A stretch of 64,000 bases of DNA from Natronomonas gomsonensis (GTDB taxonomy: Archaea; Halobacteriota; Halobacteria; Halobacteriales; Haloarculaceae), in assembly GCF_013391635.1 (NCBI RefSeq), contig NZ_JACAWU010000001.1, positions 248,001 through 312,000 of the forward strand, given 5' to 3'. The translations under genes were made by a program, and so were the position numbers. The notes beneath the pieces are model-generated. The model searched no databases and was not told where the DNA came from. It was given only the letters and a program-made list of their open reading frames with translations. Shown here piece after piece: positions 4,095 to 10,952 of this stretch (within the stretch, counting starts at the first letter, position 1; the number at the start of each line of letters is the position of its first letter).

Positions 4095-4415
4095 TCACTG
4101 AGCGGCGAGGACGAGCAGCGCCGTCGCATCGGTGACCGCCTTCGGCGAGATATCCTGGTCGCCGTCGAACCGAACAATCTCGCCGGCATCGAGTTCGTGC
4201 GTCGAGTCGTCGAGCGCGAGGTCGAGACGCCCCTCCAGTAGATACAGAACGATGTGTCGGTCGGGGTGGCGGTGTGGTGGTATCTCCTCGCCGGCCGAAA
4301 GCGACAGCCGGACCGTCTTGGGTTCGGTTCCCGGAAACACGTTCGCCTGCGGCGTCGAGTCGAGTTCCGAGAGGTGGCGTTTCGTGGGCACGCTCGACGT
4401 TCGGGTGCCGACCAC
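4095..4415 (-). CDS. Small cupin-domain protein
   Basis: About 106 aa from GTG 4415; a second in-frame GTG at 4391 gives 98 aa. No ATG is in frame, so the start is uncertain. The core has the cupin motif PHRHPDRHIVLYLLEG and a second strand pair around GEIVRFDGDQDISPKA, consistent with a single beta-barrel metal- or ligand-binding protein. The substrate is unknown. It is divergent from the acyl-CoA dehydrogenase gene, and the CGAACATGTTCG palindrome lies 14-25 bp upstream of GTG 4415. Confidence 0.65.
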   Translation of the reverse strand: MVGTRTSSVPTKRHLSELDSTPQANVFPGTEPKTVRLSLSAGEEIPPHRHPDRHIVLYLLEGRLDLALDDSTHELDAGEIVRFDGDQDISPKAVTDATALLVLAAQ

Positions 4416-4428
4416 CTCCGCCCGTCGC

Positions 4429-4440
4429 CGAACATGTTCG
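4429..4440. promoter_or_regulatory. Palindromic operator CGAACATGTTCG, copy 1
   Basis: A perfect 12-bp palindrome in the divergent cupin/acyl-CoA dehydrogenase intergenic region. Its centre is about 65 bp upstream of the dehydrogenase ATG and about 40 bp upstream of a TATA-like TTTGTTA (4471-4477). The same 12-mer occurs at 8209 and 8939 in the nos region with similar spacing to TATA-like boxes. The position suits an activator site upstream of a leaderless promoter. Confidence 0.6.
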
Positions 4441-4499
4441 TGTCTCAATCGCTGGGATTCCGCACACCCGTTTGTTACGTGGCGTGACGAGGAGTACGT

Positions 4500-5726
4500 A
4501 TGAAGTACGACGACCCCGACGCAGGCCGCGTCGTTGCAGAGCGAACCCGTGAGTTCATCGACGACGTTGTTGTTCCGAAGGAGCGGTCGCTGGCAAGCGG
4601 CGGCGACGTGTCCGCCCACACCGTCAAGGAACTGCGGGACGCCGCACGGGAGTACGAGGTGTACGCGCCCCAAATCGACGCCGAGTACGGCGGACTCGGC
4701 TTGAGTTTCCGCGAGGCGTTGCCCGTCTTCGAGGCCGCCGGCCGCTCGTTGCTCGGACCGCTCGCCCTCCGGGTCGACGCCCCCGACGAGGGGAACATGC
4801 ACCTGTTGGAACTCGTCGGCGACGACCTCCAGAAGGAGCGGTATCTCCAGCCGCTCGTCGACGGGACGATGCGGTCGGCGTTTGCGATGACCGAACCGCA
4901 ACCCGGTGCGGGGTCGGACCCGAAGATGATTCGCACACGCGCCGAGCGCGATGGGGACGAGTGGGTCATCGACGGCCACAAGTGGTGGACGACACAGGGC
5001 GTCGAAGCCGACGTGTTCGTCGTCCTCGCCCGAACGGACCCCGAAGTCCACCCCTACGAGGGGTGTTCGCTGTTCCTCGTCGACGCCGAGACGCCGGGCG
5101 TCGATGTGGTTCGGAACATCCCCCACATGGGCGGCGGACCGACCGGGAAGAGCCACGCCGAGGTGAAATTCGAGAACGTTCGCGTCCCCAACGAACACCT
5201 CCTCGGCGAGGAGGGAGAGGGCTTTGCCGCCGCTCAGCGGCGGCTCGGACCGGCCCGGCTGACACACTGTCTGCGGTTCTCCGGCGTCGCCGACCGCGCC
5301 CTCGACATCGCGTCGGCGTACCTCTCCGAGCGGGAGGCCTTCGGCACGCCGCTTTCGGACAAGCAGGCCCAGCGGTTCGCCATCGCCGATTCGGGGACGC
5401 GGCTCCACGCCGCCCGAACGCTCGTGCGCCACGCCGCCGACCGAATCGAAGCGGGCGAGGAGGCACGCACCGAGGTCGCGATGGCGAAGACGTTCACCGC
5501 CGAAGTGGTCCAGGAGGCCGTCGACACCGCCGTTCAGGCCTGCGGCGGTAGCGGCATCGGCAAGGACCTCCCGCTGTCGGACTTCTACGAGTCGGTTCGT
5601 GCCTTCCGTATCATCGATGGCGCCGACGAAGTCCACAAGCGCGTCGTCGCCCGAGAACTGCTCGCCGACCCGCCGACGGAGGAGCTCGACGTGCTCCCGA
5701 CGTTCGAGGGGCGAACCGTCGAGTAA
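4500..5726 (+). CDS. Acyl-CoA dehydrogenase
   Basis: 408 aa, full length. It oxidises acyl-CoA to enoyl-CoA with FAD, passing electrons to ETF. Family blocks are present: AMTEPQPGAGSDP (the FAD/substrate loop), WVIDGHKWWTT, an SHAEVKFENVRVP strand region, and a C-terminal RAFRIIDGADEVHKR. The last block resembles ACAD10/11-type enzymes (DGxDEVH) rather than the YEGT with catalytic Glu of medium-chain enzymes. The gene appears leaderless: a TATA-like TTTGTTA lies about 25 bp upstream of the ATG. The palindrome further upstream suggests co-regulation with the nos region. Confidence 0.9.
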   Translation: MKYDDPDAGRVVAERTREFIDDVVVPKERSLASGGDVSAHTVKELRDAAREYEVYAPQIDAEYGGLGLSFREALPVFEAAGRSLLGPLALRVDAPDEGNMHLLELVGDDLQKERYLQPLVDGTMRSAFAMTEPQPGAGSDPKMIRTRAERDGDEWVIDGHKWWTTQGVEADVFVVLARTDPEVHPYEGCSLFLVDAETPGVDVVRNIPHMGGGPTGKSHAEVKFENVRVPNEHLLGEEGEGFAAAQRRLGPARLTHCLRFSGVADRALDIASAYLSEREAFGTPLSDKQAQRFAIADSGTRLHAARTLVRHAADRIEAGEEARTEVAMAKTFTAEVVQEAVDTAVQACGGSGIGKDLPLSDFYESVRAFRIIDGADEVHKRVVARELLADPPTEELDVLPTFEGRTVE

Positions 5727-5835
5727 CCGTGCCGACTCTCAGGAACTGGGACGCCGACTACCGATTGAAACCCGCGGGTACCGTATTCATGGGTATGAAG
5801 GGTGGACACCGGCACAAACGGAGGGGACGGACCCG

Positions 5836-6162
5836 ATGACCGCCGACGGACTCCAGTTGGCCGTGGTCGTGGCCAACACGGTGACGCTCGTCGTCGGCGG
5901 CTTCGTGACGCTACTCGCCGTGAGGGCGTACCGACGGACCGGCTCGCGGTCGCTGCGAGCGCTGTCGGCCGGCCTCGGCTGTATCACCGGCGGGACGCTG
6001 CTCGGGGGGCTACTGCACCAATCGGAACTCGCCTCGCTGCTCGTCGGCGTCACCGTCCACAGCGCCTCCATCGCACTCGGGTTCCTGCTGTTGGCGTGGT
6101 CGCTGTTCGGCCCCGATGCCGCGTTCGAACCGCAACTCACCACGTCGAGAGACGAACAGTGA
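5836..6162 (+). CDS. Small three-helix membrane protein
   Basis: 108 aa from ATG 5836. Three hydrophobic segments are clear, at about residues 8-30, 38-58 and 68-92, separated by a basic loop (RAYRRTGSRS) and a short acidic C-terminal tail. It resembles small haloarchaeal membrane proteins often found next to regulators or respiratory genes. No enzymatic motif is visible. It is convergent with the polytopic membrane gene that ends 2 nt downstream. Confidence 0.7.
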   Translation: MTADGLQLAVVVANTVTLVVGGFVTLLAVRAYRRTGSRSLRALSAGLGCITGGTLLGGLLHQSELASLLVGVTVHSASIALGFLLLAWSLFGPDAAFEPQLTTSRDEQ

Positions 6163-6163
6163 C

Positions 6164-7345
6164 TCACCGCCGGTTTCGACGCGTCCAGAACACGGCGAGC
6201 AACACGACCGCGTGAGCGACGGCGCCGGCCAGCGCCAACCACCGACCACCCTCGACGGCCGCCCCCGCGCCGGCGAGCAGTCCACCACCCTCCACGACGA
6301 CGCCGACGGCGAGCAGGGCGACGGCGACCGCCGCAGTTCGGTCGTCGACCCCCATCGCCGAGGCGACGGTCGGCGGATAGAACTGGTATTCGACGCCGAC
6401 GACGGCGAGGCCGAGAAAGCCGAGCAACGCGAGTCGAGCGTGGGCCGAAGCGACGTCGGAACTGATTCCCTCGACCGCCATGTGGACGCCGAGCAGGGCG
6501 ACCCCCGCCGCGGCGACGGCGGCGAGGACGACAGTGTACAGCCCGATTCGACGCCGGTCGCTCCGGAGGAACATGTCGACGTAGGCGACGCCGAAGCCGA
6601 GGAGCGCGAGCGCCTGAACGCCGGCACCGAGGTGGAACCACCCACCACCGCCGAAGGCTGTCGCCAGAAGCAGCGGCCCGGCCGCGCCAGCGGGGAGAAC
6701 GACTGCGACCAGCGGCCATCTCGGTGTGACGACGAGGAATCGCGGTAGTAATCGAAAGCCGAGCGTGAACACGAGCAGCGCGGCCGTCCCGGCGGCGAAG
6801 AGGTGAGTCACCGGCGGGCCGCCGGTCGGGAGCGGTCCGAATCCGATACCGAGCGACAGCACCGACCCGACGAGGAGGTAGCCGAGCGCGGCCGGGACGA
6901 AGGCGTTGGCGAAGCGGTCGACCCGCAGTCTGTCGGCCTTCGCGTCGCTGGTCCCGGTTTCGCCGCCGGAGAGGTTGTCGCGGACGCTCCAGGCGAGCGT
7001 TCCGACGAAGACGAGACACCCCAGCGCCCACAGCGCGGCGCCGACGGTTCCCCACATGGTCGGGAGGAAACCGGCCGCTTCCGCCGCGACGGCGGCGGTT
7101 CCGACGACGGCAAGCGGGAAGTGGACCGCCGGTGCCCGGGGGAACGCGAGCGCTCGGTCGAAGTAGGAGGGGACGAGCGCGTAGGCCTTCCCGAACACCG
7201 TATGCAGGACGAAGCCGTACAGGCCGACGACGACGGCGGGGCGGCCGACGCCAGCGACGACGGCCGCCTGCCAGCAGACGAACCACCCGAGACCGGCGAG
7301 TACGAATAGCCGCGTCCACCGCGCAGTCGCCGAGGAGGCGCTCAT
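6164..7345 (-). CDS. Polytopic membrane protein, NnrS/heme-copper-oxidase-like
   Basis: 393 aa with roughly 12 TM helices and almost no loops. Conserved-looking His residues sit at helix ends: VLHTVFGKAYALVPSYF, AVHFPLAVVG, VTHLFAAGTAALLVFTLGFR and WFHLGAG. The THLFAAGT...GFRLLPRF block resembles the NnrS-type and quinol-oxidase-like membrane proteins found with denitrification genes. A role in nitrogen-oxide or heme-linked membrane chemistry is inferred from this and from the neighbouring nos genes. A two-mismatch copy of the operator palindrome lies upstream at 7427. Confidence 0.55.
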   Translation of the reverse strand: MSASSATARWTRLFVLAGLGWFVCWQAAVVAGVGRPAVVVGLYGFVLHTVFGKAYALVPSYFDRALAFPRAPAVHFPLAVVGTAAVAAEAAGFLPTMWGTVGAALWALGCLVFVGTLAWSVRDNLSGGETGTSDAKADRLRVDRFANAFVPAALGYLLVGSVLSLGIGFGPLPTGGPPVTHLFAAGTAALLVFTLGFRLLPRFLVVTPRWPLVAVVLPAGAAGPLLLATAFGGGGWFHLGAGVQALALLGFGVAYVDMFLRSDRRRIGLYTVVLAAVAAAGVALLGVHMAVEGISSDVASAHARLALLGFLGLAVVGVEYQFYPPTVASAMGVDDRTAAVAVALLAVGVVVEGGGLLAGAGAAVEGGRWLALAGAVAHAVVLLAVFWTRRNRR

Positions 7346-7426
7346 CGCCGGCCGTTCGTGGCCGAGCGTGAAAGTCCTCGGGGACGAGTCGGAGATAACG
7401 GCAGAACGCCGAGGCCGTGTCGGTTC

Positions 7427-7438
7427 CGATTATGTTCG
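7427..7438. promoter_or_regulatory. Imperfect copy of the palindrome (CGATTATGTTCG)
   Basis: Matches CGAACATGTTCG at 10 of 12 positions. It lies 82-93 bp upstream of the start of the reverse-strand membrane gene (7345), about 38 bp from a TATA-like GTTATCTC on that strand, but it also overlaps the stop codon of the regulator gene. Weak evidence alone; listed because of the spacing. Confidence 0.25.
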
Positions 7439-8119
7439 GTTCGAGAGCATCGTCGGCGAGTCGGTCTGGGCTTCGATGTCGCCTCGCGGGACGAGGTGCT
7501 GTTCGGCGAACCGGCGGATGACCCGCCCCTCGGCGCGGTGAAGCGTCTCGCTGCACGTCGATTTGGCGAGACCGACGGCATCGGCGAGTTCGGTGAGCGA
7601 ACACTCCCGCGGTGTGTCGTAGTAGCCACACTCGACGGCCGTCAACAGCAGTTCGGCCTGCCGCTGTGAGAGTAGCCGGTCGGGTTCGGTGTCCTCGTGG
7701 ACGGCTTCGACGGTGTAGGAGAGGCCGAACCGGTCGAATTCCTCCCCAAGCGTCGAGAGTCGGTCGTGGGAGGCTCTGAGTTCGATTTCGGCGGTGCCCT
7801 CCCTGATGAGTACCGGCGGTTCGATGGGGATGCCCGAGGCCTGCGCAGACAGCAACAACAGGGGTGCAGTCGTTTCGATTTGGACGACGACGCGGCCCGC
7901 GGACTGCTGGAGCGGTTCGATGTCGTTTATTTGCGGATTTTCGACCATCGAGCGAATCGCCGGCTCCAGCTCGGGGGCGGTAATCTCGACGAGTGCGAAT
8001 CCCACGTCGTCGGTGGGCATCGTCGCGAGCACACGGAACGTCGCGTCGGCGTGTGTCGTCGTCACCTGGTGAATCCAGGTTCGCTCCGGAAGGTCGACGG
8101 TGAGTTCGGCCCGTGGCAT
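7430..8119 (-). CDS. Bat-type HTH-10 transcription regulator
   Basis: 229 aa from ATG 8119. The C-terminal third (LLSQRQAELLLTAVECGYYD, then CSLTELADAVGLAKSTCSETLHRAEG) is the bacterio-opsin-activator HTH_10 domain that binds DNA in haloarchaea. The N-terminal 150 residues are a ligand-sensing region of the kind seen in these regulators. It lacks the N-terminal Cys cluster of the anaerobic-respiration regulators NarO/DmsR as I recall them. It is divergent from halocyanin-nosZ with an operator palindrome in the shared intergenic region, so it is the best candidate to bind that palindrome. Confidence 0.85.
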   Translation of the reverse strand: MPRAELTVDLPERTWIHQVTTTHADATFRVLATMPTDDVGFALVEITAPELEPAIRSMVENPQINDIEPLQQSAGRVVVQIETTAPLLLLSAQASGIPIEPPVLIREGTAEIELRASHDRLSTLGEEFDRFGLSYTVEAVHEDTEPDRLLSQRQAELLLTAVECGYYDTPRECSLTELADAVGLAKSTCSETLHRAEGRVIRRFAEQHLVPRGDIEAQTDSPTMLSNRT

Positions 8120-8208
8120 ACCCGAGGGTATGGAACCCGACGGGAAAGCCCCGTCGTCGCCTCCCAAATGTTGGGATTCGGCCGCGTGAGCGCCACACTC
8201 GGCCGCAG

Positions 8209-8220
8209 CGAACATGTTCG
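8209..8220. promoter_or_regulatory. Palindromic operator CGAACATGTTCG, copy 2
   Basis: A perfect palindrome between the HTH-10 regulator (reverse, start 8119) and the halocyanin gene (forward, start 8288). Its centre lies about 45 bp upstream of a TATA-like CTTTATC (8256-8262). It is well placed to control halocyanin, and perhaps the regulator itself. Confidence 0.65.
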
Positions 8221-8255
8221 GGTCGGTCCCGAGCGGTGGGATGCCCCTCGACGGT

Positions 8256-8262
8256 CTTTATC
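8256..8262 (+). promoter_or_regulatory. TATA-like box for halocyanin
   Basis: CTTTATC, centred about 28 bp before ATG 8288. This spacing would place transcription start at or next to the ATG, a leaderless arrangement common in haloarchaea. Confidence 0.45.
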
Positions 8263-8287
8263 CATCGGTATCCTCGCTCCGAACGTA

Positions 8288-8827
8288 ATGGGACGACACG
8301 ATTCGACGCGACGGCGAGTGCTTCAGGTGACTGGAACGACGGTTGCCGCGGGCCTACTCGCCGGCTGTACCGGCGGTGGCAACGGCGACAGTGGAAATGG
8401 TAACGGTGACAGCGGAAACGGCAACGGCAACGGCGGAAACGGCAATAGCGACGATGGGAACGGTGGCGGCGACAGCGGCGGTGACACCGCCCAGTTCGAC
8501 GGTTGGTTCGATGGCGTGTCGAACTACGACGGCGTCACCGACGCGACAGGCGAGTCGGAGGTCACAGTCGAGGTTGGCGCCGGCTCCGACGGACTGCTGT
8601 TCAGTCCGCCCGCGATTCGAGTCGACGCCGGCACGACGGTCGTCTGGGAGTGGAGCGGCAACGGTGGCGCCCACAACGTCGTCGACGACGGTGGCGACTT
8701 CGAGAGCGACCTCTACAGCGAAGCCGGCGAGACCTTCGAGTACACCTTCGACAGCGCCAGAACGTCTAAGTACTACTGTAATCCCCACAAATCGATGGGG
8801 ATGAAAGGCGTCGTCGTCGTCGAGTAA
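8288..8827 (+). CDS. Halocyanin, blue-copper lipoprotein
   Basis: 179 aa. An N-terminal twin-arginine signal (STRRRVLQVTG) and the lipobox LAGC give a lipid-anchored extracytoplasmic protein. A Gly/Asn/Asp-rich linker (about residues 32-65) follows, then a plastocyanin-like domain with type-1 copper ligands His (GGAHNVV), Cys and His (YYCNPH) and Met (SMGMKG). It carries one electron at the outer membrane face. Being 223 bp upstream of nosZ with a matching operator, it is a likely electron donor to nitrous oxide reductase (inference). Confidence 0.92.
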   Translation: MGRHDSTRRRVLQVTGTTVAAGLLAGCTGGGNGDSGNGNGDSGNGNGNGGNGNSDDGNGGGDSGGDTAQFDGWFDGVSNYDGVTDATGESEVTVEVGAGSDGLLFSPPAIRVDAGTTVVWEWSGNGGAHNVVDDGGDFESDLYSEAGETFEYTFDSARTSKYYCNPHKSMGMKGVVVVE

Positions 8828-8938
8828 GCCGTCGAGTTCGAGCCCTTCCTTTCTCGCGTGCGTGCCGACGATAACCAGCCGCCGACAGCGGGTGCGCCGA
8901 ACGCTGCGACCCGAGGAAGGACCCGGCGGATGGGCGGC

Positions 8939-8950
8939 CGAACATGTTCG
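8939..8950. promoter_or_regulatory. Palindromic operator CGAACATGTTCG, copy 3
   Basis: A perfect palindrome upstream of nosZ. Its centre is about 45 bp before the TATA-like GTATATGC (8986-8992) and about 106 bp before the nosZ ATG. The spacing to the TATA box equals that of copy 2. Confidence 0.65.
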
Positions 8951-8985: not shown

Positions 8986-8992
8986 GTATATG
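8986..8992 (+). promoter_or_regulatory. TATA-like box for nosZ
   Basis: GTATATG within the intergenic region. Transcription would start near 9015, leaving a 5' leader of about 35 nt before the nosZ ATG at 9051. Confidence 0.45.
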
Positions 8993-9050: not shown

Positions 9051-10952
9051 ATGACCGACACGACCCATACGGAGACGGACGACGCACAGGGCCGGGACGA
9101 GGAGATGCTGTTACCGCAGTTGGGCCTCGACCGGCGGGACTTCATGAAAGCCGGCGCCGCCGCCGGGACCCTCGGGGCCATGGCCGGTTGTACCGGCCTG
9201 CTCGACCGCGACGACGGGACCGGGGCCGGTGGCGCCAGCGGCAACGCCGACGCCCACGTCCCGCCCGGGGAACTCGACGAGTACTACGCCTTCCTCAGCG
9301 GCGGCCACTCAGGGGACATCCGCGTCCTCGGGTTGCCGTCGATGCGGGAGATAATGCGCATCCCGGTGTTCAACCACGAGAGCGCACGCGGCTACGGCTA
9401 CGACGACGAGAGCAGCGAGATGCTCGAGGAGGCGGGCGGCTACACGTGGGGGGACACCCATCACCCGCGTGTCAGCCAGACGGACAACGACTACGACGGC
9501 CGCTGGGCGTTCGTCAACGACAAGGCCAACGGCCGGATGGCCCGCATCAACCTGAAGTACTTCGAGACGGACGCCATCGTCGACATCCCGAACCAGCAGG
9601 GGACCCACGGCGCCTGTTGTGTCCTTCCGGACACGAAGTACGTCATCGGCGTCGGCGAGTTCCGCGTCCCGCTGGAGAACGACGGCCGCAGTCTCGACGC
9701 CCCCGACGAGTACGGCTCGGTGTTCGCCGCCATCAACCCCGAGACGATGAACGTCGAGTGGGAGGTGCTGGTCGACGGCAACATGGACAACGGCGACGGC
9801 GGCAAGGAGGGCAAGTGGTTCTTCACCACCGGCTACAACAGCGAGGGCGGGGTCACCGAATCCGAGATGACCCAGTCGGACCGCGACATGGTGAAGGCGT
9901 TCAACATCCCGGCCATCGAGGCCGCCGTCGAGGCCGGCGACTACGAGGAGATAAACGAGGTTCCGGTCGTCGACGGCCGACAGGACAGCCCGCTGAACAG
10001 CGGGAGCGACCCCGTCGTCAAGTACATCCCGACGCCGAAGAGTCCCCACGGCGTCAGCGTCACGCCGGACAACAACTACGCCATCGCCAGCGGGAAACTC
10101 GACCCGACGGCGACGGTCATCGACATCGCGGCGCTCGACGAGGTCGACGACCCCGAGGAGGCGGTCGTCGGCCGGCCACGACTCGGAATGGGGCCGCTGC
10201 ACACCGCCTACGACGGCCGCGGCCACGCCTACACGACGCTGTTCATCGACTCGCAAGTCGTCAAGTGGGACATCGAGGCCGCCGTCGAGGCCGACCTCGG
10301 CAGCGAGGACCCGGTCGTCGAGAAAATCGACGTCCACTACAACCCCGGTCACCTCATCGCCAGCGAGTCCTACACGGCCGACCCGGCGGGTGACTGGCTC
10401 ATCTCGCTGAACAAGCTCTCGAAGGACCGCTTCCTCCCGGTCGGGCCGATGCACCCCGAGAACGACCAGCTCATCTACATCGGCGACGACGAGGGTGGAA
10501 TGGAGTTGGTGAAGGACAAACCGTCCTACGCCGAACCCCACGACGCCTCCATCGTCCACCGGGACAAGATAGAGCCGGCGAAGACCTACGACCCCGAGGA
10601 CCTCGACTTAGAGCACACCGCCGCCGGCGAGGAGTCCGTCGAGCGGGTCGCCGACGACCGCGTCGAGGTGAAGATGTACTCGATGCGCAACGAGTTCGGC
10701 TTCCCGGACATCACCGTTCAGGAGGGCGACACCGTCGAGATGCAGGTGACGAACATCGAGACGACCAGCGACATCCTGCACTCGCTGGTCATCCCCGAAC
10801 ACGATGTCAACATCAAGATGGCGCCACAGGAGACGACGAAAGTGACCTTCGAGGCCGACGAGCCAGGGGTCTACTGGATGTACTGTGGGTTCTTCTGCAG
10901 TGCACTCCACCTGGAGATGCGCTCTCAGCTCCTCGTCGAACCGGAGGGATAA
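9051..10952 (+). CDS. nosZ: Nitrous oxide reductase
   Basis: 633 aa. It reduces N2O to N2 outside the cytoplasmic membrane. ATG 9051 gives a twin-arginine signal (LDRRDFMKAG, Arg28-Arg29) ending in a lipobox-like MAGC (Cys47). The CuZ region is seen in GDTHHPRVSQT (His137-His138) and the following YDGRWAFVNDKANGRMARI. The CuA domain is intact: His near 577 (DILHSLVIP), then YCGFFCSALHLEM with Cys612, Cys616, His620 and Met623. Classical enzymes have CTWFCHALHMEM here, so ligands are kept and spacers vary. It leads an operon with the following four genes. Confidence 0.97.
   Translation: MTDTTHTETDDAQGRDEEMLLPQLGLDRRDFMKAGAAAGTLGAMAGCTGLLDRDDGTGAGGASGNADAHVPPGELDEYYAFLSGGHSGDIRVLGLPSMREIMRIPVFNHESARGYGYDDESSEMLEEAGGYTWGDTHHPRVSQTDNDYDGRWAFVNDKANGRMARINLKYFETDAIVDIPNQQGTHGACCVLPDTKYVIGVGEFRVPLENDGRSLDAPDEYGSVFAAINPETMNVEWEVLVDGNMDNGDGGKEGKWFFTTGYNSEGGVTESEMTQSDRDMVKAFNIPAIEAAVEAGDYEEINEVPVVDGRQDSPLNSGSDPVVKYIPTPKSPHGVSVTPDNNYAIASGKLDPTATVIDIAALDEVDDPEEAVVGRPRLGMGPLHTAYDGRGHAYTTLFIDSQVVKWDIEAAVEADLGSEDPVVEKIDVHYNPGHLIASESYTADPAGDWLISLNKLSKDRFLPVGPMHPENDQLIYIGDDEGGMELVKDKPSYAEPHDASIVHRDKIEPAKTYDPEDLDLEHTAAGEESVERVADDRVEVKMYSMRNEFGFPDITVQEGDTVEMQVTNIETTSDILHSLVIPEHDVNIKMAPQETTKVTFEADEPGVYWMYCGFFCSALHLEMRSQLLVEPEG

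Follow-up and report, generated by a model that had tools for sequence, protein, structure and literature searches.

A published denitrification palindrome in Natronomonas gomsonensis and an HTH_10 regulator as its candidate reader

Introduction

Bat-type regulators of the bop regulon are HTH_10 activators, with a palindromic UAS just upstream of the TATA box. The denitrification of Haloferax volcanii is governed by NarO, another HTH_10 regulator (PMC10062603 and PMC11218638), which is described as the only transcriptional regulator known for haloarchaeal denitrification (PMC11218638). In the same species, the palindrome CGAA-X4-TTCG occurs in the promoters of denitrification genes and of ahbD (PMC5746218) and is reportedly essential at nirK (Hattori 2016, as cited in PMC5746218); the gene called ahbD, HVO_2144, lies near nirK, and its deletion impairs anaerobic growth (PMC5746218). 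In Haloferax mediterranei, CGAACATGTTCG is the motif of the nos and nor promoters, with the consensus CGAAYATDKTYG. All mutations but one significantly cut the activity of nos, and a single mutation in nor did likewise (PMC10062603). The motif was found with FIMO in 83 promoter regions; in nir, nor and nos genes, it lies 66–79 bp before the ATG, and it is present although H. mediterranei reportedly has no NarO (PMC10062603). In a further report, the genes placed in the context of the motif are halocyanin, DUF2249 genes and E6P09_00735, a bacterioopsin-activator-like gene, and two genes of this last kind, chiefly E6P09_00735, are proposed as possible main regulators; the core discussed there is nar/nir/nor/nos, and the binder of the motif is called undisclosed (PMC11218638).

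Here, we analyze a stretch of 64,000 nucleotides from Natronomonas gomsonensis (hereafter the window), which holds this known motif in a new species: its 12-mer is identical to the published nosp/norp 12-mer and agrees with the published consensus. Because this 12-mer is already in print and has been mutated, the motif itself is not new; what is new is the class-wide picture of the motif, a candidate reader and a wider regulon. As in H. mediterranei, sites are found upstream of halocyanin and DUF2249 genes, but unlike in the reports on that organism, the motif is tied here to one regulator family class-wide, and to CGCGG and MoaD-like genes. The terms RiPP, MoaD and radical SAM are absent from the main text of PMC11218638, and no paper linking the CGCGG family, TIGR03995 or TIGR04053 to the motif was found among the literature matches listed. 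A sequence-only reading of the window had noted that the 12-mer would fit the CGAA-N4-TTCG-like repeats of NarO/DmsR-type anaerobic regulators, and the published descriptions support its place in the CGAA-N4-TTCG family of denitrification sites (PMC10062603, PMC5746218).

Results

An exact scan of the 64 kb confirmed that CGAACATGTTCG occurs at the three places noticed in the sequence-only reading and nowhere else in the window. The copies and the features around them are listed below, where REG denotes the HTH_10 regulator gene and its protein, and ACAD the acyl-CoA dehydrogenase.

4095–4391, minus strand: small cupin gene (98 aa, GTG start), whose frame and start align with the ATG of homologues
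4429–4440: motif copy 1, exact CGAACATGTTCG, between the divergent cupin and ACAD genes
4500–5726, plus strand: ACAD gene (Pfam match), probably a bystander
6164–7345, minus strand: membrane protein with 12 transmembrane segments (12-TM), predicted heme-copper-oxidase/NO-reductase-like fold
7427–7438: degenerate copy CGATTATGTTCG with 2 mismatches, ~87 bp upstream of the 12-TM gene
7430–8119, minus strand: REG (PF04967), proposed motif binder, with the motif in its promoter class-wide
8209–8220: motif copy 2, exact CGAACATGTTCG, between REG (95 bp to the ATG) and halocyanin (73 bp)
8257–8262, plus strand: TATA-like box TTTATC upstream of halocyanin; distance to the motif start, 48 bp
8288–8827, plus strand: halocyanin, a blue copper electron carrier (TIGR03102, over cut-off)
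8939–8950: motif copy 3, exact CGAACATGTTCG, 106 bp upstream of the nosZ ATG
8987–8990, plus strand: TATA box upstream of nosZ; distance to the motif start, 48 bp, as in motif-bearing nosZ relatives
9051–10952, plus strand: nosZ, nitrous oxide reductase (TIGR04244, 729 bits, cut-off 625)

We consider it likely that a single transcription factor uses all three palindromes as operators; this factor is most probably REG, which would activate from two positions. This reading has to be weighed against a chance clustering of the 12-mer in a GC-rich genome. The exact 12-mer is expected 0.008 (first-order Markov) to 0.038 (second-order Markov) times per 64 kb, and the second-order expectation scaled to the genome (3,377,131 bp) is ~2 exact copies, so that the five copies found there (none for the reversed control) are weak evidence as a count, and the weight rests on their placement. 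Placement speaks against chance: three copies lie inside 4.5 kb, and a genome-wide comparison with gene starts, which the sequence-only reading had put forward as a check, places all five exact copies 43–106 bp before a plausible start, at fixed spacing. In addition, the motif is conserved class-wide, and the counts for permuted controls stay close to zero when 1 mismatch is allowed. We rejected a chance origin, which the comparative counts at the CGCGG, MoaD-like, REG and nosZ promoters oppose and which we regard as having a negligible probability.

The two copies outside the window lie upstream of a MoaD/ThiS-like gene (locus L004) and of a CGCGG gene (L005), with the motif centre 44 bp from the ATG in both. 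Among the 11 one-mismatch genome sites listed, none has an ATG at this spacing, and one (L011) has a GTG frame there. At up to 2 mismatches, the window holds 8 places against a shuffle mean of 4.64, a degenerate count that is not special, since at least 8 were reached in 10 of 100 shuffles; one of these places, CGATTATGTTCG at 7427–7438, is a possible weak site upstream of the 12-TM gene. The corresponding genome-wide contrast (347 sites versus 44 for the reversed pattern) was left unused, because the reversed pattern is unfair as a composition control. Across 292 genomes, the reversed 12-mer turns up in four.

To REG, which the sequence-only reading had singled out as the HTH_10 gene bordering copy 2, the motif is linked by several lines of comparison. 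REG carries PF04967 at its C-terminus (58.6 bits, cut-off 23.1), and REG-like matches occur in all 292 genomes; in 263 of them, the match is strong (E 1e-30 or better). In 110 haloarchaeal REG promoters, taken from the best-scoring of the 292 genomes (30 loci and 80 fetched stretches, skipping second hits of two genomes and leaving 182 genomes unread), the motif is exact in 23, has at most 1 mismatch in 76 (within 160 bp before the start) and at most 2 mismatches in 88, against maxima of 0, 2 and 7, respectively, for 59 permuted palindromes. This class-wide conservation, found by reading the same promoter in relatives as had been suggested, supports REG as the likely binder. The motif precedes REG in at least one promoter for 29 of 42 genera, and among the 24 HTH_10 loci of the genome, it lies within ~1.5 kb of REG alone. 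The 34 other REG promoters have no motif at up to 1 mismatch, and only 11 of the 30 closest REG loci have it when scanned from −150 to −20. In genus g39, it precedes REG in 0 of 4 cases, and in two of these four genomes (G201, locus L234, and G134) it precedes a MoaD-like gene that lies immediately upstream of REG. No motif occurs in 16.6 kb of a Halomicrobium plasmid on which REG, CGCGG and cupin genes are present.

The presence of the motif also follows that of REG. Among the 29 genomes without a good REG match, 4 hold the exact motif, 4 the CGCGG gene and 7 the MoaD-like gene; among the other 263, the numbers are 176, 201 and 181 (Fisher 3e-8, 4e-11 and 5e-6, respectively). REG was called absent at a best E above 1e-30, a threshold fixed after the table was inspected, and the tests ignore shared descent, the promoters not being phylogenetically independent. 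At a stricter threshold of 1e-40, the exact motif is found in 8/41 versus 172/251. Genome groups and the values for the motif and for the CGCGG, MoaD-like and DmsR_N-like genes were tallied by eye from tables. We propose REG as the reader on the basis of promoter conservation, its position as the sole HTH_10 locus with the motif, the co-occurrence of motif and REG, and the published mutagenesis; the comparative case makes it a strong candidate.

In REG promoters, the distances between site and start concentrate at 44, 50–51, 90 and 7 bp. At 7 bp (15 cases, sometimes with a second copy at 45 bp), the site abuts the ATG, which would suggest negative feedback in that group, and the 7-bp and 45-bp copies together look like a repressing plus an activating site. 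Promoters in which the motif centre is 7 bp upstream of the ATG include those of L118, L120 and L122.

REG has Cys residues only at 164, 173 and 189, all in the HTH half (in a 98% identical orthologue, and in the window protein as aligned), and no N-terminal Cys cluster, which bears out the earlier remark that it lacks the Cys cluster of NarO/DmsR-type regulators. Domain searches found no PAS or GAF match, a difference from the Bat-type regulators, which REG resembles as an HTH_10 protein; a fold search with the predicted model (pLDDT 79.7) gave no meaningful match, and no sequence relative was found in the PDB at E up to 0.1. The NarO/DmsR-type regulators, defined by DmsR_N (PF24277), share with REG the C-terminal HTH_10 domain and the association with anaerobic respiration genes, and REG differs from them in its three Cys in the HTH half and in giving no DmsR_N match at E up to 1. 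It is conceivable that such a regulator, with its DmsR_N domain and Cys cluster, reads the motif and that REG is merely a target. In genus g6, a DmsR_N plus HTH_10 gene directly follows REG (in L240, this neighbour matches PF24277 at 2.5e-39), which makes a NarO-like protein a serious rival, favoured too by the standing of NarO in the denitrification literature (PMC11218638) and by the palindrome reported as essential at H. volcanii nirK (PMC5746218). Nevertheless, we find it unlikely. The motif lies upstream in just 1 of the 30 best homologues of the g6 DmsR_N protein (30 DmsR-like loci read of 292), and this neighbour was rejected as a motif-carrying gene. Likewise, the exact motif is present in 2 of 18 REG-less genomes with a good DmsR_N-like match (E below 1e-30), versus 22 of 46 genomes in which REG is present and the DmsR_N-like match is weak (E above 1e-20), a contrast (Fisher 0.009) that is not decisive, because the DmsR_N search mixes orthologues and paralogues. 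Finally, the motif is present in H. mediterranei, which reportedly has no NarO (PMC10062603).

With REG as the preferred reader, we compared the positions of the sites. The sequence-only reading had proposed a regulatory site at much the same distance from the TATA-like boxes of halocyanin, nosZ and ACAD. This holds for halocyanin and nosZ, whose identical 48-bp spacing from the motif start supports a regulatory site at fixed spacing, and fails for ACAD, whose box (TTTGTTA, 4471) is poor and ~6 bp closer. Of 107 nosZ loci, 91 were kept at ≥55% identity (16 bacterial loci were dropped), with at least one genome, Natronomonas sp. CBA1123, counted twice; its NosZ is 98% identical (L032). The conservation at nosZ orthologues looked for on the strength of that reading is seen in part: 20 of the 91 promoters carry the motif inside 200 bp with no more than 1 mismatch, and 71 do not. 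In all 20, a TATA-like 4-mer begins 46–50 bp from the motif start, in a test that accepts any of five 4-mers. Within 350 bp, a count of 21 at up to 1 mismatch compares with a control maximum of 4, and at up to 2 mismatches the count is 31/91, with one permuted palindrome reaching 11. In genus g3, the motif is found at 7 of 7 REG promoters but at 0 of 14 nosZ loci. Compared with the published 66–79 bp (PMC10062603), halocyanin, at 73 bp, falls inside, and nosZ (106 bp), REG (95 bp) and cupin (43 bp) fall outside; nosZ, despite its 106 bp to the ATG, still keeps the TATA spacing of halocyanin. In the genome, whose record is 99% complete, nosZ was found and no NirK over cut-off, and the organism is possibly an N2O reducer without NirK.

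The second position is typical of CGCGG and MoaD-like genes. The L005 gene clears the TIGR03995 cut-off (“CGCGG family putative rSAM-modified RiPP protein”), and its product is a putative RiPP by the name of this NCBI model; the L004 gene scores over the cut-off of Pfam ThiS and below that of NCBIfam moaD_arch. At up to 1 mismatch, the motif lies upstream in 23 of 30 CGCGG loci (read of 205 matching genomes) and 22 of 30 MoaD-like loci (of 188), with control maxima of 0 and 1. Sites at 43–45 bp number 19 in each set of 30, the MoaD-like figure being lowered by automatic start choices that were wrong at some loci. In these promoters, a T-rich spot lies 22–24 bp and a TA 39–40 bp from the motif start, positions that would be as expected of leaderless promoters. 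The distal and proximal positions differ by 26–29 bp, no whole number of helical turns. The MoaD/ThiS-like gene of L004 (G000:C1:325218-325637) and its homologues do not end in Gly-Gly; in the 30 loci, the C-terminus reads PF-x-F/Y-C and then C in 25 cases, L in 4 and F in 1.

For copy 1, which lies between divergent genes, the target has to be chosen. The sequence-only reading had assigned it to ACAD and overlooked the cupin gene. The ACAD ATG is 65 bp away, near the published range (PMC10062603), the box TTTGTTA lies ~36 bp from the motif centre, and the arrangement is retained in one close relative; if copy 1 controlled ACAD, alone or with the cupin gene, lipid metabolism would join the regulon. 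That assignment went unsupported: among the 30 best ACAD homologues (of 69 matching genomes), the motif lies upstream in one, the window's own, and with 0 of 29 others ACAD was rejected as a conserved target. In the close relative, 1 bp is missing on the ACAD side alone, and the cupin-side spacing is unchanged. We therefore hold ACAD control to be rather improbable. Copy 1 probably serves the cupin gene instead, judging by its class-typical spacing (centre 43–44 bp from the GTG at 4391, the class mode) and by the motif at DUF2249–cupin operons elsewhere, although the cupin side shows no TATA, which counts against it. In 14 of 30 cupin loci (read of 49 matching genomes), the motif lies 271–284 bp upstream, and in 9 of these 14 a DUF2249-like frame (Pfam-confirmed in one of the nine) intervenes, its start 36–46 bp away from the motif centre. 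No such motif lies within 420 bp in the remaining cupin loci, among them L200 and L201 from the same genus, except for weaker 2-mismatch sites in L210, L217 and L219.

Discussion

From the observed sites, their spacings, their conservation and their co-occurrence with REG, we infer a mechanism in which a dimer of REG would recognise CGAA-N4-TTCG and act as a transcriptional activator. At the proximal position, ~44 bp would separate the motif centre from the start of a leaderless gene, with a weak TATA directly following the motif; at the distal position, which would be used at halocyanin and nosZ, the motif start would lie ~48 bp before a good TATA and ~73 bp before the expected transcript start. 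The REG gene would be autoregulated, the other targets in the window would be halocyanin, nosZ and, through copy 1, cupin rather than ACAD, and the CGCGG peptide gene and the MoaD-like gene would be added elsewhere in the genome. The signal would be low oxygen and/or NO or other N-oxides.

NosZ is found over cut-off in only 85 of the 292 genomes, which indicates that the regulon is wider than N2O respiration. We give even chances to the more general proposal that REG is the reader of the haloarchaeal denitrification palindrome, and that its ancestral regulon is not denitrification, but a class-wide module of REG, the CGCGG peptide with its TIGR04053 radical SAM protein, a ubiquitin-like protein with a PF-x-aromatic-Cys tail and DUF2249/cupin proteins, to which nirK, nor, nosZ and halocyanin were recruited lineage by lineage. 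Under low oxygen, such a module may deal with NO, heme or copper. The regulon would provide a first functional context, in low-oxygen, N-oxide or NO metabolism, for the CGCGG and MoaD-like proteins, both small, conserved and little known, and the finding bears on N2O release from saline systems. With the reader called undisclosed (PMC11218638), a named REG gene with a proposed autoregulatory site, present in much of the class, makes the question testable.

Related clusters combine these genes. Cluster L240 of genus g6 (L229 is similar) holds NirK over cut-off, MoaD-like, CGCGG and TIGR04053 radical SAM genes, together with the DmsR_N plus HTH_10 regulator, REG, DUF2249, cupin and 12-TM genes, with motif copies in between. 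A Haloferax larsenii plasmid, on which a 45% identical REG relative sits in a similar cluster, has eight motif sites in ~10 kb, 43–48 or 72–73 bp from annotated starts (worked by hand). The genes bearing them are REG, halocyanin, a radical SAM gene whose product exceeds the TIGR04053 cut-off but not the AhbD one, DUF2249, two hypothetical genes, a multicopper oxidase that scores below the cut-off of the NirK model, and a cbb3-type oxidase subunit I, which is perhaps a quinol NO reductase. In H. mediterranei, E6P09_00735 is a candidate orthologue of REG. Homologues of the 12-TM protein, which itself has no Pfam or NCBIfam match, occur in clusters L229, L231, L240, L076 and L106. Its AlphaFold model, of modest confidence (pLDDT 73), resembles NorB and cbb3 oxidase (TM ~0.6), so that the protein would be heme-copper-oxidase-like and perhaps NnrS-like.

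Two smaller neighbours were also noted. In L240, a gene next to a DUF2249 gene (4784–5104, minus strand) encodes a small protein with a match to the GlutR dimerisation domain (PF00745). The window carries a DUF7521 gene (Pfam) at 5836–6162, and a gene similar to it by eye adjoins the CGCGG gene and REG in L239.
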